A stretch of 64,000 nt of DNA from Sinorhizobium sojae CCBAU 05684 (GTDB lineage Bacteria; Pseudomonadota; Alphaproteobacteria; Rhizobiales; Rhizobiaceae), in assembly GCF_002288525.1 (NCBI RefSeq), contig NZ_CP023067.1:1426001-1490000 (forward strand). The letters run 5' to 3'. A program made the position numbers and the translations under genes. A model generated the notes under the pieces. That model saw only the letters and a program-made list of their open reading frames with translations, had not been told where the DNA came from and did no database searches. Shown piece after piece: positions 32,633 to 37,362 of the stretch (its first letter is position 1; the number at the start of each line of letters is the position of its first letter).

Positions 32633-34419
32633 TGTAGCGACATTTTAGAGATGCGACATATGCACCAGTTAGAGATGCGACAGTCGTCGCCTCTTGGGAT
32701 GCTGGTCAAACGTCAACGTTTGGAAGGAAGACTGGCGACGTGAAGCGTGGTTGAGACCATGAGCGTTCGGAGTCGTCATGTCTTGTTTGATCACCATGTC
32801 GCAGAAGGAATTGCATCGTCTTGAACTCATCCAACAGATTCGCGGGCGTAGCCTGACTGTCGTCGAGGCGGCCGCGTTGCTCGGTCTCAGTCGCAGTCAG
32901 GTGCACCGGCTGTTGCAGGCCTATGATCGTGCCGGCGCCGACGGTCTGGTCTCGAAGAAGCGCGGCCGGCCGAGCAACCGGCGCCACAGTGAGGACTTCC
33001 GCAACCTGGTGCTCGACCTGGTGCGTGAGCATTACGTGGATTTCGGACCAACGTTGGCCACCGAGAAGCTGCTCGAACGCCACCGGATAGCCGTCAGCAA
33101 GGAGACGCTGCGTCAGTGGATGATGGAAGCCGGCCTCTGGGTGTCGCGACGCGAACGCAAGAAGCGGGTTTTCCAGCCGCGCGGCCGGCGCGATTGTTTC
33201 GGCGAACTCATTCAGATCGATGGCTCGCATCATTGGTGGTTCGAGAACCGCGGCCCCAAATGCGCCCTGCTCGTCTATATCGACGACGCCACCGGCAAGC
33301 TGTTGCATCTGCGCTTTGCGGCTTCAGAGAACACCTTCGACTATTTTCACGCAACGAGGGCCTATCTGCAGCAATGGGGCAAGCCGATCGCCTTCTACAG
33401 CGACAAGCATGGCATCTTCCGCACGACCCATGCTTCCAAGAAGGACAGGACCAGTGGCCTGACGCAGTTCGGGCGGGCTCTTTATGAGCTCAACATCGAC
33501 ATCATCTGCGCCAATACCCCGCAGGCCAAGGGACGCGTCGAGCGCGCCAACCAGACGCTGCAGGATCGTCTGGTCAAGGAACTGCGGCTGCGCGGCATCG
33601 ACACGATTGCGGCGGCCAATGCCTATGCGCCGGAGTTCATCGCGGATTTCAATCGTCGCTTTGGCAAGGAACCGCGCAATCCGAAGGACATGCATCGGCC
33701 GTTTGCCGCGCATGAGAACCTCGATGGTGCCATGTGCCGCAAGGAGATCCGCAAGCTGTCGCAGGCCCTGACGCTGCGCTATGACAAGGTGCAATTCATC
33801 CTCGATCCGACGGATATCGCCAAGACGCTCGCCGGCAAGAAGGTCATTGTCTGCGACTATCCCGATGGCCGTCTTGAGATCACCCACGAGGGGACGTCCC
33901 TGCCCTACAGAACCTTCGACACGCTGCGCTCGGTGCACCGATCCGAGGTGGTTGAGAACAAGCGCCTCGATGACATGCTGGCGCTAGTGGCCGAGATGCA
34001 GGCCGGCCGAGAGCAACAGCGCAGCAAAAGCGGGCCGCGTCGCACCGGCCAGACGGACCATATGTTCGGCATTCCCGACGGCAGCCAAAGCAATGGCTAC
34101 CAAAAGCGCGGCACGAAGCCTGGCAGGAGGACGGATTTCACCAACGATCCTGTGGTGATCGCCCGGCGGCAGCAGTCTCTGGCAAGATTGAAGGCAGCCG
34201 AGCATCCGACGGGTTCGAGCTCTCAAAGCTGAAGTTTATTTTGCAGCTGGAGCCATCCGCCGCCGACCGGGCTGCGCAACCCTGACCAGCTCCACCCGGC
34301 CGGCGGCTTGGGTCTGCGTACTTTGTAAACATATCAACTTGAAAACGCAGTAATAATGGATAGGATGAAGTCGCATTTCTAAGTTGACTACTTTGTCTCT
34401 TCTTTAAATAGCTGTGACA
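32633..34419 (+). mobile_element. IS1202-group (ISNCY) insertion sequence, IS-A
   Basis: A 1,787-bp element bounded by TCTTG on both sides. The left end starts TGTAGCGACATTTTAGAG; the right end read inwards starts TGTCACAGC. Subterminal TTAGAGATGCGAC repeats occur twice at the left (32648 and 32670 areas) and once, inverted as GTCGCATTTCTAA, at the right near 34371, presumably transposase binding sites. It contains one intact transposase gene. Confidence 0.75.
32778..34232 (+). CDS. ISNCY/IS1202-group transposase (IS-A)
   Basis: A 484-residue DDE transposase. The N-terminal helix-turn-helix is at about 10-60 (TVVEAAALLGLSRSQVHRLL). The catalytic core has its first Asp in LIQIDGSHHWW, the second in FYSDKHGIF and the Glu in KGRVERANQTLQDR. 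The C-terminal basic domain ends RRTDFTNDPVVIARRQQ. The frame is complete, so the element may be active. It is about 40-50 percent identical by eye to the IS-B transposase next to it. Confidence 0.9.
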   Translation: MSCLITMSQKELHRLELIQQIRGRSLTVVEAAALLGLSRSQVHRLLQAYDRAGADGLVSKKRGRPSNRRHSEDFRNLVLDLVREHYVDFGPTLATEKLLERHRIAVSKETLRQWMMEAGLWVSRRERKKRVFQPRGRRDCFGELIQIDGSHHWWFENRGPKCALLVYIDDATGKLLHLRFAASENTFDYFHATRAYLQQWGKPIAFYSDKHGIFRTTHASKKDRTSGLTQFGRALYELNIDIICANTPQAKGRVERANQTLQDRLVKELRLRGIDTIAAANAYAPEFIADFNRRFGKEPRNPKDMHRPFAAHENLDGAMCRKEIRKLSQALTLRYDKVQFILDPTDIAKTLAGKKVIVCDYPDGRLEITHEGTSLPYRTFDTLRSVHRSEVVENKRLDDMLALVAEMQAGREQQRSKSGPRRTGQTDHMFGIPDGSQSNGYQKRGTKPGRRTDFTNDPVVIARRQQSLARLKAAEHPTGSSSQS

Positions 34420-34502: not shown

Positions 34503-34964
34503 TTGCGGATGGGACTGATTGCGATGAGCGAACGCGATCTGCAGCGGATTGAGGTTCTGTCGAAGGTCGTCGACGGCCGGATGACGATTGTTTCGGCGGC
34601 GCATGTCCTGGGCTTGAGCACGCGTCAGGTTCGCCGGCTCTTGGAGCGGATCCGGACGGATGGTGCAGCATCGATCCGGCACAAGGCGATCGGCCGACCG
34701 TCGAACAACCGGATCAGCGACGGCGTGCGCGACTATGCCGTAGCGGTCGTGCGCGAGCGCTATGCCGATTTCGGTCCGACGCTGGCTGCCGAGAAGCTGG
34801 CCGAGCGCGACGGCCTGACGGTGTCGCGCGAGACCTTACGCAAATGGATGTCGAAGGCCGGCCTGTGGCTGTCACGCAAGCAGCGGCGCAGCTTCCATCA
34901 GCCGCGGCTGCGCCGAGAAGCCTACGGCGAGCTGGTGCAGATCGACGGTTCCGAGCATCGCTGG
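34503..34964 (+). pseudogene. IS-B transposase, 5' part (split by insertion)
   Basis: 154 codons of an IS1202-group transposase: helix-turn-helix (TIVSAAHVLGLSTRQVRRLL) and the first catalytic Asp in VQIDGSEHRW. The reading frame stops making sense exactly where the IS1111-type element begins. The other half resumes in phase at 36448. An alternative start is the ATG at 34524 (MSERDLQRIEVL). Confidence 0.85.
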
Positions 34965-34966
34965 TT

Positions 34967-35295
34967 GTCTAATCGCATTCCATCCGTCAAGCTGGTTTGA
35001 GCATCCAGCGACCTTGCCGGCTTGCGGCGCAGGCAACACGGCTAAAACTGATTGGGTAAATCTGCCCTCACCGGCCGTGTCTTCAGAGCTATCCAGTGCT
35101 GGGAGCAGGGTTGTCTCCGCGGTCGACAAATGTCGCCGCACAATGGTCTTCGCAGGTGGGATCTTCCTAATGTTCGAGGCGCAGTCTCAACGAGCTGCAG
35201 CCAGCGAAAGCGGAATGATCCTGCCCACGTCCGCAGCAGGGACGCTCAGCACCAAAAGTTAGATGGCGCGCTGAGGGACGAAGGCTGAGCGTCTC
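34967..35295. ncRNA. Candidate guide RNA (bridge RNA/seekRNA) of the IS1111-type element
   Basis: The non-coding end folds into three hairpins. GCGGTCGACA/TGTCGCCGC is at 35119-35139. A long stem at 35156-35228 (GTGGG-ATC-TTCC with GGAA-GAT-CCCAC) holds a 44-base internal loop. GACGCTCAGC/GCTGAGCGTC is at 35241-35293. The middle loop has TTCGAGG (35173-35179), equal to the bases right of the insertion point, and CCAGCGA (35201-35207), complementary to the bases left of it. That is the target-loop logic of IS110-family bridge RNAs. The transcribed strand is not settled. Confidence 0.5.
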
Positions 35296-36327
35296 CTATA
35301 CGGTGGCGCCAGCCGATGCGTTGAACACTTCTCCCGTCTTGAGCATGCTGTGCATGATGACCGCGAGCTTCCGGGCGACGGCCACAGCGGCCCGTTTGAA
35401 GCCAAGCCGCTCACGCAGCTTAAGCCCCCAACTCTTGAGACTGCTCTCGGTCCTGGGATTGGTTCTCGTCAGGAGCGCTGTTGCCGCTTCATAAAGCAGC
35501 CCCCGCAAACGATTGTCGCCTCTTCGCGAGATATGGCCGTCATAATCGACCTCGCCTGACTGGTAGCGCCGGGTTGTCAACCCAAGCCAGGCGCCAACGG
35601 AGCGCGACGTTCGGAAGTTTTCTGGATCTTCAACTGCCGTAACGTAGGATACAGCCGTGATAGCGCCGATGCCTGGGATTGTCATCAATAGCTTCGTAGC
35701 CTGGCTCTCCCGTGCGACAGTAAGCAACTGGCGATCAAGGCCGGCCACTCGATTGCGCATATCGTACCATGCCTCAAGCAGAGGCAAGATGATCTTTGCG
35801 AGCCCGTCATTGCCCTCCAAAAGCCTTCTCACATTGCCATCAAACACCCGACCCGCTCCTTTGGGGATGATAAGACCGAATGTCTTCATCAGACCGCGGA
35901 TCTGATTGCCAGGTTGTGTTGAGATGTTCAGGAGTTGTTCGCGGGCAGCCACCAACGCGCGGGCCATCATAGCGTCAAACGACTTGACGCGAACCGCTTT
36001 GTAAAAGCCTGCGTCAGCGAGTTGAGCCAAACCATCCGCATCGTTGGCATCGGTTTTGTTGAGCGTCTCGTTCAATACCTTTTGCGCGTGCCGCGCTTCT
36101 ATGCAGATCGCAGGAACCCCCTCGGTCGTCAGCACATGATAGAACCACGTCGACAACGGCCCCGTCTCGAATACGACGCGCCGGGCGTGCGGGGCGTTTT
36201 TGCGGATCATCTCTGCAAGAAGCTTGGGGTCCGAAGGACATCTCCCCCGCCAGATCCGCTTCCCGTCTTCCCGAACCGAGATCGCCGTATCTTTCAATGA
36301 AACATCAAGCCCAATATATTGGTCCAT
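35296..36327 (-). CDS. IS110/IS1111 family transposase
   Basis: A 343-residue DEDD transposase. The RuvC-like domain begins MDQYIGLDVSLKDTAISV; further acidic residues lie in VVFETGPLSTW and NKTDANDADGLA. The C-terminal Transposase_20 domain has TIPGIGAITAVSYVTAV and the serine region RRGDNRLRGLLYEAA. The start at 36327 has GGAGG upstream. It works with a guide RNA in the family as now understood. The frame is intact, so the element may still move. Confidence 0.93.
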   Translation of the reverse strand: MDQYIGLDVSLKDTAISVREDGKRIWRGRCPSDPKLLAEMIRKNAPHARRVVFETGPLSTWFYHVLTTEGVPAICIEARHAQKVLNETLNKTDANDADGLAQLADAGFYKAVRVKSFDAMMARALVAAREQLLNISTQPGNQIRGLMKTFGLIIPKGAGRVFDGNVRRLLEGNDGLAKIILPLLEAWYDMRNRVAGLDRQLLTVARESQATKLLMTIPGIGAITAVSYVTAVEDPENFRTSRSVGAWLGLTTRRYQSGEVDYDGHISRRGDNRLRGLLYEAATALLTRTNPRTESSLKSWGLKLRERLGFKRAAVAVARKLAVIMHSMLKTGEVFNASAGATV

Positions 36328-36447
36328 GGTTGCCTCCATCCGATGTTTGGGCCCGGTTCCAATCGAGAGCCCGTTTTTCCATCTTATCGGGGGCAACCAC
36401 CCTCGCCAGCCAAAACGGCAGGGCGGTCGCGCCGCGATTACTCCATG

Positions 36448-37362
36448 TTCGAGGATCGCGGTGACCCCTGTTCGCTTCTGGTGTTCATCGACGATGCGAC
36501 CGGCAAGCTGATGCAGTTGCGGTTCGTGCGCTCGGAAAGTGCGTTTACGTATTTCGAGGCGCTGGAGCTTTATCTGCAGGCGCATGGTGCTCCGGTCGCC
36601 TTTTATTCCGACAAGCATTCGGTGTTCCGGGTGGCGAAGAAGGATGCCAAGGGCGGTCAGGGCATGACCCAGTTCGGCCGCGCGCTTTCAGAGCTAAACA
36701 TTGAGATTCTTTGCGCGAACTCGAGCCAGGCGAAGGGTCGGGTCGAGCGGATGAACCGGACGCTGCAGGACCGTTTGATTAAGGATCTGCGCCTGGAGGG
36801 CATCTGCGGCATGGACGACGGCAACGCTTTCCTGCCTCGGTTCATGGAGCGCTATAACCGGCAGTTTGCCATTACCCCTGCCCGACCTGATGATCGGCAT
36901 CGGTCGCTGAACCTTGCCCCGGATCGGCTGAAGGAGATCCTGTGCAAGCGGGAGCAGCGTTATGTCGGTGCCCAGCTGACGTTCTCCTACGAGCGCCAGC
37001 GGATCATGCTGGAAGAGAACGGGGTGACGCGCGGACTGGTCGGCCGCTATGTCGAGACCTACGCCTATGCCGACGGCAGGCTGGATGTGCGCTGGAAGGG
37101 GTATTCCCTGCCCTACCGGGTGTTTGACAAGGACCAGCGGGTGACGCATGCGGCGATCACCGAGAACAAGCGGCTTTCCGATGTGCTGGCCTGTATCAAG
37201 GAGCGGCAGGATCAGTCGTCGCCGAAGGTCAAGACCAACAGCGAGAAGAATGGCTACACGCCGCGGGGTCGCAAGCCCGGCCGGCGGACGGATTCCATGA
37301 ACGATCCGGCGGTCATTGCTCGGCGGCGGCAGGCGCTCTCTAACGGCGATGCCGCAGAATGA
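36448..37362 (+). pseudogene. IS-B transposase, 3' part (split by insertion)
   Basis: 304 codons continuing the IS-B transposase: FEDRGDPCSLLVFIDDATG, second Asp in FYSDKHSVF, Glu in KGRVERMNRTLQDR, C-terminal RRTDSMNDPAVIARRRQ. Joined in phase to the 5' part it gives 458 residues, close to the intact IS-A protein. An in-frame ATG at 36319 lies inside the inserted element and is not the original start. Confidence 0.85.

Follow-up and report, generated by a model that had tools for sequence, protein, structure and literature searches.

The insertion sequence and its host gene

The window, a stretch of 64,000 nucleotides from Sinorhizobium sojae CCBAU 05684 (contig NZ_CP023067.1), harbours a complete insertion sequence of the IS1111 type lodged in an ISNCY-family transposase gene, next to an intact paralogue of that gene (Table 1). 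The ends of the element are fixed by the left end (LE) ACATGG.GTAATCGC and the right end (RE) GCGATTAGACA, which are common to its relatives, and by the empty site; AAC is common to both junctions and the empty site, nothing further is duplicated, and a target duplication is thus absent. A search of the 6.1-Mb genome with the element's own DNA returned the element as the sole match. The target occupied in the window reads CCTCGAACCAGCGA, and the version in the paralogue, empty and 1.7 kb away from the element, reads CTCGAACCACCAATG; the latter is the version that the guides of relatives fit.

The transposase matches Pfam DEDD_Tnp_IS110 and Transposase_20 as well as NCBIfam NF033542, "IS110 family RNA-guided transposase" (241 bits), and phmmer aligns it with ISCro4 and IS621. 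At 343 residues, with a DEDD (RuvC-like) and a Transposase_20 domain, it lies within the 330-350 aa that define the IS1111 type. The motifs GLDVS, FETG, TDANDAD and QSG are all present, so that the DEDD-type motifs and the SG motif are kept; that their residues are the catalytic ones rests on part of the IS621 structure paper (PMC11208158) and on the phmmer alignment to ISCro4. The perfect subterminal repeat of 7 bp is inside the 7-17 bp range of PMC11208160, yet below the 11-13 bp usual among the seekRNA elements of PMC11187229. It leaves terminal extensions of 8 and 4 bp, or 7 and 3 bp counting the next, mismatched base pair, the IS1111 pattern being 7 on the left and 3 on the right. Upstream of the transposase gene the non-coding DNA amounts to about 120 bp; downstream, the non-coding region (NCR) runs for 330 bp from the stop codon to the right end.

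Table 1. Features of the element and its surroundings (window coordinates)
Feature	Position	Strand	Basis or remark
IS1111-type insertion sequence, complete, 1483 bp	34966..36448	-	LE at 36448, RE at 34966
IS110/IS1111 DEDD transposase, 343 aa, intact	35296..36327	-	Pfam, NCBIfam, motifs, phmmer
Left subterminal inverted repeat TAATCGC	36434..36440	-	8 bp from LE tip
Right subterminal inverted repeat GCGATTA	34970..34976	-	4 bp from RE tip
Predicted bridge RNA / long seekRNA, ~142 nt	35097..35238	-	ends inferred from helix 1
Closing helix (helix 1)	35231-35238 / 35097-35103	-	structure on 45 sequences
Target arm	35159..35221	-	outer helix 35212-35221 / 35159-35167; inner stem 35195-35198 / 35181-35184
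Right target guide TCGCTGG	35201..35207	-	complementary to right target CCAGCGA, exact in the window
Left target guide CCTCGAAC	35172..35179	-	same as left target + AC
Donor-arm hairpin	35118..35140	-	between the two donor guides; helix 5, 5/9 pairs changed on both sides
Probable left donor guide AGACAAC	35110..35116	-	same as RE tip AGACA + AC
Candidate right donor guide CCAT (weak)	35143..35146	-	complementary to LE ATGG
Interrupted ISNCY-family transposase gene, 5' part	34503..34965	+	NF033594 profile 1-149, 182 bits
Interrupted ISNCY-family transposase gene, 3' part	36449..37362	+	NF033594 profile 140-367, 297 bits
Intact ISNCY paralogue	32778..34232	+	homologous site 33237, CTCGA|ACCACCAATG, empty

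Two guide words in the non-coding end

A sequence-only reading of this region had recognised, in the loop of a stem, the words TTCGAGG (35173-35179) and CCAGCGA (35201-35207), 21 bases apart and pairing with opposite strands across the insertion junction, and we find them exactly so. Read on the minus strand, which is the sense of the transposase, TCGCTGG comes first and CCTCGAAC second; against the empty target ...CCTCGA|ACCAGCGATGC... the former complements the right target, and the latter equals the left target followed by AC. The same reading gave 34967..35295 as the span of the guide RNA; a predicted guide RNA does lie there, but the element extends over 34966-36448 and the RNA takes up only about 35097-35238 of its 330-bp end.

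One could argue that two 7-base matches are a product of chance, or a by-product of conserved end sequence, and that the protein picks the site. Indeed, among 200,000 first-order random sequences with the composition of the NCR, three registers being allowed per side, a 7-base word for one side or the other turned up in 5.7% and 8.3%, so a match to a single side somewhere in the NCR is no rarity (6-8%), and TCGCTGG itself is present twice. Both words in the IS1111 order and at most 45 nt apart occurred in 0.05% of the random sequences, in line with the earlier judgement that the pair is unlikely by chance, and this figure is suggestive, short of proof. The comparison of relatives weighs more: covariation across 64 elements with its permutation tests, and pairs of almost identical RNA cores found at different sites and distinguished by their guides only, both described below, leave the chance explanation a negligible probability. 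The second copy of TCGCTGG (35005-35011) is near the right end, outside the conserved RNA, and is probably a chance occurrence.

Guides follow targets across 64 elements

Relatives were drawn from two sources, genome contigs (80 loci, the best among 415 candidates) and genomes of the same genus (23 of 33 with a match), which together gave 111 loci with the window's element counted twice. Ninety-two have a near-full-length transposase; the patterns used recognised no right end in 15 of these and no left end in another 4, and the remaining 73 came down to 64 distinct elements, the window's included, once duplicates and short flanks were dropped. Since the right-end pattern demanded a flank starting with AC or AT, the near-universal AC core is partly there by construction; the unfiltered list of loci also has AC in most rows. 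In the numbering of target positions, 0 is the base immediately to the right of the junction, and the window coordinate is 35296 minus the RNA position.

Every NCR column was compared with every flank position in the 64 elements, with no location assumed for the guides. The nine strongest signals (z 7.3 to 12.6) form two diagonals: RNA 118-122 equals target -5..-1 in 59, 59, 64, 63 and 64 of the 64 elements, and RNA 94-91 is complementary to target +2..+5 in 55, 55, 55 and 45. The tenth signal is an unrelated column (z 6.3) and the eleventh pairs RNA 90 with +6 (45/64). Taken over the 44 distinct guide pairs, guides match their own targets at 468 of 616 positions against 229 +/- 14 after shuffling (maximum 289 in 20,000 permutations), and the 12 distinct close pairs alone give 131 own-target matches against 82 +/- 8 (maximum 115); the relatives are not independent, the permutations ignore kinship, and the target scan gives z values up to 6.3 for unrelated columns. 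Chance as the source of the guide matches is rejected by this permutation over relatives, kinship being ignored. In 33 of the 44 cases a guide pair fits its own target best, ties included, and in 19 it does so as the unique best. The right side fits poorly in L032 and L072 (3/8) and in L041 and L056 (4/8), and some low match counts are due to alignment shifts, as for L078, which has a 9-base match. Mapped on the transposase tree, the columns listed each offer between 3 and 10 independent contrasts with support, none significant alone by sign test; among these columns -5, -4 and -3 agree without exception, and +5, +6 and +7 only partly, +6 and +7 poorly. The sequence-only reading had proposed that loop bases should be seen to change with each insertion site in other copies, and across the 64 distinct elements they do follow it.

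A predicted two-armed RNA of conserved structure

Forty-five of the 64 elements (the window's and 44 relatives) entered the RNA alignment, and the structure drawn on them has five helices: a closing one, two in the target arm and two in the donor arm. Changes on both sides of a pair are found in 17 of 32 pairs (8/13 in the target arm, 6/12 in the donor arm), 96.1% of cells are paired against 38-47% in slid controls, and none of 500 shuffles attains any of five structure measures. Four helices come from RNAalifold; the outer target-arm helix (helix 2), which the program missed on the 45 sequences probably because of gap placement, was added by hand. Once helix 2 is named and its pairs are counted the helix is apparent; as it was drawn up by reference to the window's fold and the alignment, its percentage paired is biased upward, its two-sided changes less so, and one of its pairs is broken in 14 of the 45 sequences. 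In the window's fold, both target guides lie inside the internal loop between helices 2 and 3.

The stem described earlier at 35156-35228 does fold (segment 35150-35234 at -36.8 kcal/mol, z -2.9, none of 200 shuffles as low), and the hairpin at 35119-35139 is helix 5, conserved among the aligned relatives. The third hairpin of that description, at 35241-35293, folds in the window too but is outside the conserved RNA; it is strong, adjoins the transposase stop codon and might serve in processing or stability. Because the NCR is little conserved from RNA position ~200 to just before the right end, and is about 100 bp shorter in many relatives, we delimit the RNA to ~142 of the 330 nucleotides, in agreement with the 145-170 nt of the long form of IS1111 seekRNAs in PMC11187229. 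Rfam covariance models gave no match up to E 1 in 34900-35320, and at gathering scores across the window they returned five tRNAs only.

The strand deserves a comment, as the earlier coordinates were written on the plus strand and both words are, of course, present on either. A plus-strand transcript is nonetheless very improbable: the published IS1111 order is that of the minus strand, with the RNA on the strand of the transposase gene (PMC11187229), and G-U pairs that keep helices on the minus strand become A-C mismatches on the plus strand.

One core, three guide versions, three sites

Among the nearest relatives (L117 and L118 left out of this comparison) the RNA core is nearly frozen outside the guides. 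Six of them (L003, L004, L005, L026, L034 and L035) carry the guide CTGGTGG and are located in ISNCY genes at CTCGA|ACCACCA. L025 has the guides of this group at the site ACTCGA|ACCACCAC, matched at 5/6 and 7/8 positions, and no ISNCY match was found at its site. The window's element has TCGCTGG and the site CCTCGA|ACCAGCGA, and three copies in Ensifer canadensis (L114-L116) combine ATCGCTGG with TTTCGA at the site CTTCGA|ACCAGCGAT. Between the window and L005 the core differs at 3 of 92 positions, every one of them inside the right guide, while 11.6% of positions differ over the remainder of the element; between the window and the Ensifer canadensis copies it again differs at 3 of 92, all in the guides, against 10.2-10.3% elsewhere. 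In both cases the sites differ from the window's in step with the guides. For the remaining nine relatives compared, 4 to 6 of the 92 core positions differ from the window's, and between 0 and 2 of these fall outside the guides. The series thus amounts to nearly one RNA core with three guide versions at three matching sites and, together with the covariation, it upholds the earlier view that this non-coding end specifies a guide RNA. A pattern search for the RNA core in 394 genomes of the family matched only this genome and one other, the latter with the guide CTGGTGG. Elsewhere in the S. sojae genome there is no exact copy of the window's target; 2 sites have one mismatch and 88 have two, the reversed pattern used as a control giving 43 matches.

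Candidate donor guides

The sequence-only reading had found no confident donor-loop match to the ends of the element, and a simple search for 6-mers in the window alone likewise gives many weak matches and is uninformative. The relatives bring out AGACAAC, which faces the donor hairpin and is probably the left donor guide: 60 of the 64 elements carry the 6-mers of their own end junction there, and where the right end has ACG in place of ACA the RNA changes too, with agreement at RE -1 in 64/64 against 39 expected. Its z of 8.3 is the top of the donor scan, in which an unrelated pair attains 7.8 with kinship ignored, and on the transposase tree it changes three times only. CCAU is a weak candidate partner for the left end, agreeing at LE +5 in 58/64 elements against 51 expected, and 4 of 8 variants do not follow. 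Should both donor guides hold, each arm would have its right guide 5' of its left guide.

A more distant set of 14 comprises the second transposase of L046, which has 39% identity with the window's, elements with 40-73% identity to this second transposase, and three more partners from head-to-head loci (see below); within the 14, L078b reverted to an element already counted, and L155, L160 and L081b are without assigned ends. Elements of this set with other ends (AGAG|AA, ACAGA|AG) have a matching donor word at NCR position 175-207 in 8 of the 14, the word being picked out after the fact from as many as six inverted repeats per element. The donor guide of L161 is off by one base, and for L157, one of the 14 examined, none was found.

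These data bear on the idea that the NCR yields only a short target-guiding seekRNA of 70-100 nt, that the protein reads the ends through the subterminal repeats and that the donor arm is no guide. ISEc11 transposition was indeed achieved with an 82-nt seekRNA (PMC11187229), and three changes on a tree is a small number. But the donor arm has pairs changed on both sides at a rate like that of the target arm, and its loop agrees with RE -1 throughout the 64 elements and recurs in more than half of the distant set; we regard the short form as the less likely, though by no means negligible, account.

A proposed bridge-like RNA in an IS1111 lineage

We consider it highly probable (roughly 95%) that the NCR of this IS1111-type element encodes a two-armed guide RNA for its target and, less surely, for its own ends. 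The reading draws on the anatomy of the element, the conserved structure, the covariation of target guides and the match between left donor guide and right end, as observed here; expression, transposase binding, the circle intermediate and strand exchange are carried over by analogy from parts of PMC11208160 and PMC11187229. On this model the NCR would yield the RNA, read together with the transposase; TCGCTGG in the target arm would pair with the right target and CCTCGAAC with the left target; the donor-arm loop would pair with the abutted ends of the element, the right end being matched by AGACAAC and the left, with less certainty, by CCAU; and the DEDD transposase would join donor circle and target at their common AC, giving insertion in one orientation.

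RNA-guided insertion of this sort is already known, bridge RNAs and seekRNAs having been published in 2024 (Durrant et al. 2024, PMC11208160; Siddiquee et al. 2024, PMC11187229; the comparisons made here draw on parts of both texts), and what is new is this element, supported by dozens of relatives. As with the IS1111 seekRNAs of ISEc11, ISKpn4, ISPst6 and ISPa11 (PMC11187229), the NCR lies downstream of the transposase gene, the inverted repeats are subterminal, the DEDD transposase has about 340 residues, the complement of the top strand is 5' of the match to the bottom strand, and relatives are reprogrammed naturally; the same paper gives IS1111 seekRNAs the guide order seen here and IS110 the reverse order. 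Split guides for both target strands in one loop, the IS1111 order and a conserved secondary structure, by which seekRNAs and bridge RNAs are recognised, are all found here. Unlike in those elements, the target is a different one, within an ISNCY transposase gene, and unlike in ISEc11, for which an 82-nt RNA is sufficient, a donor guide is visible. With the IS621 bridge RNA (PMC11208160) the window's RNA has in common two arms, split target and donor guides and a common core dinucleotide; in IS621 the RNA is in the left end with the left guide 5' of the right, whereas here it is in the right end, and the target arm, and apparently the donor arm too, has the right guide 5' of the left.

The two founding papers, in the parts drawn on, are in tension about the donor side. 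PMC11208160 predicted donor-binding bases by inspection in six elements, IS1111 members including ISPa11 among them, and based its covariation analysis on a model of the IS621 non-coding RNA, and PMC11187229 found the short RNA sufficient for ISEc11 and left the role of the long form open. No later work on IS1111 donor guides turned up in a search limited to one open-access library and judged by titles and the start of abstracts. We are somewhat inclined to the proposal that the working RNA in this IS1111 lineage is the long, two-armed form, that the donor loop of this RNA recognises the right end of its own element, that guide order is reversed relative to IS621 in both arms, so that the "long seekRNA" would be a true bridge RNA, and that retargeting may proceed by point changes confined to the guides, following diverging ISNCY transposase genes. 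What is gained is an IS1111 guide RNA that is well delimited and annotated throughout, accompanied by a series of naturally reprogrammed guides, and comparative evidence for an IS1111 donor guide, which opens the function of the long form to direct testing.

Neighbouring insertion sequences

Several relatives (L046, L060, L078, L081, L070, L095, L090, L109, L079, L098 and L100 (LE side)) stand head to head with a second, distant IS110-family transposase, the nearest match being ~90-450 bp away. The second transposase belongs to NF033542 in the four loci checked (L046, L060, L070 and L090). Several of the guides at head-to-head loci seem to have as their target the left end of a different RNA-guided IS (GCCRTCC|ACNNCATC, CCGAAT|ACYCCATC).

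On the minus strand of the window's element, CTTGAC (34986-34991) precedes the right end by 20 bp and is kept in most of the 64 elements; it fits a -35 box that would be completed only on joining of the ends in the circle, as in ISEc11 (PMC11187229). Finally, the right end does not abut AC at six loci (L007, L038, L009, L039, L063 and L051). At all of these but L063 it is followed by GGATATTCGGCTTTGCG, which with the preceding ATG looks like the left end of a further IS1111-type element, and these loci are possible end-to-end IS fusions.
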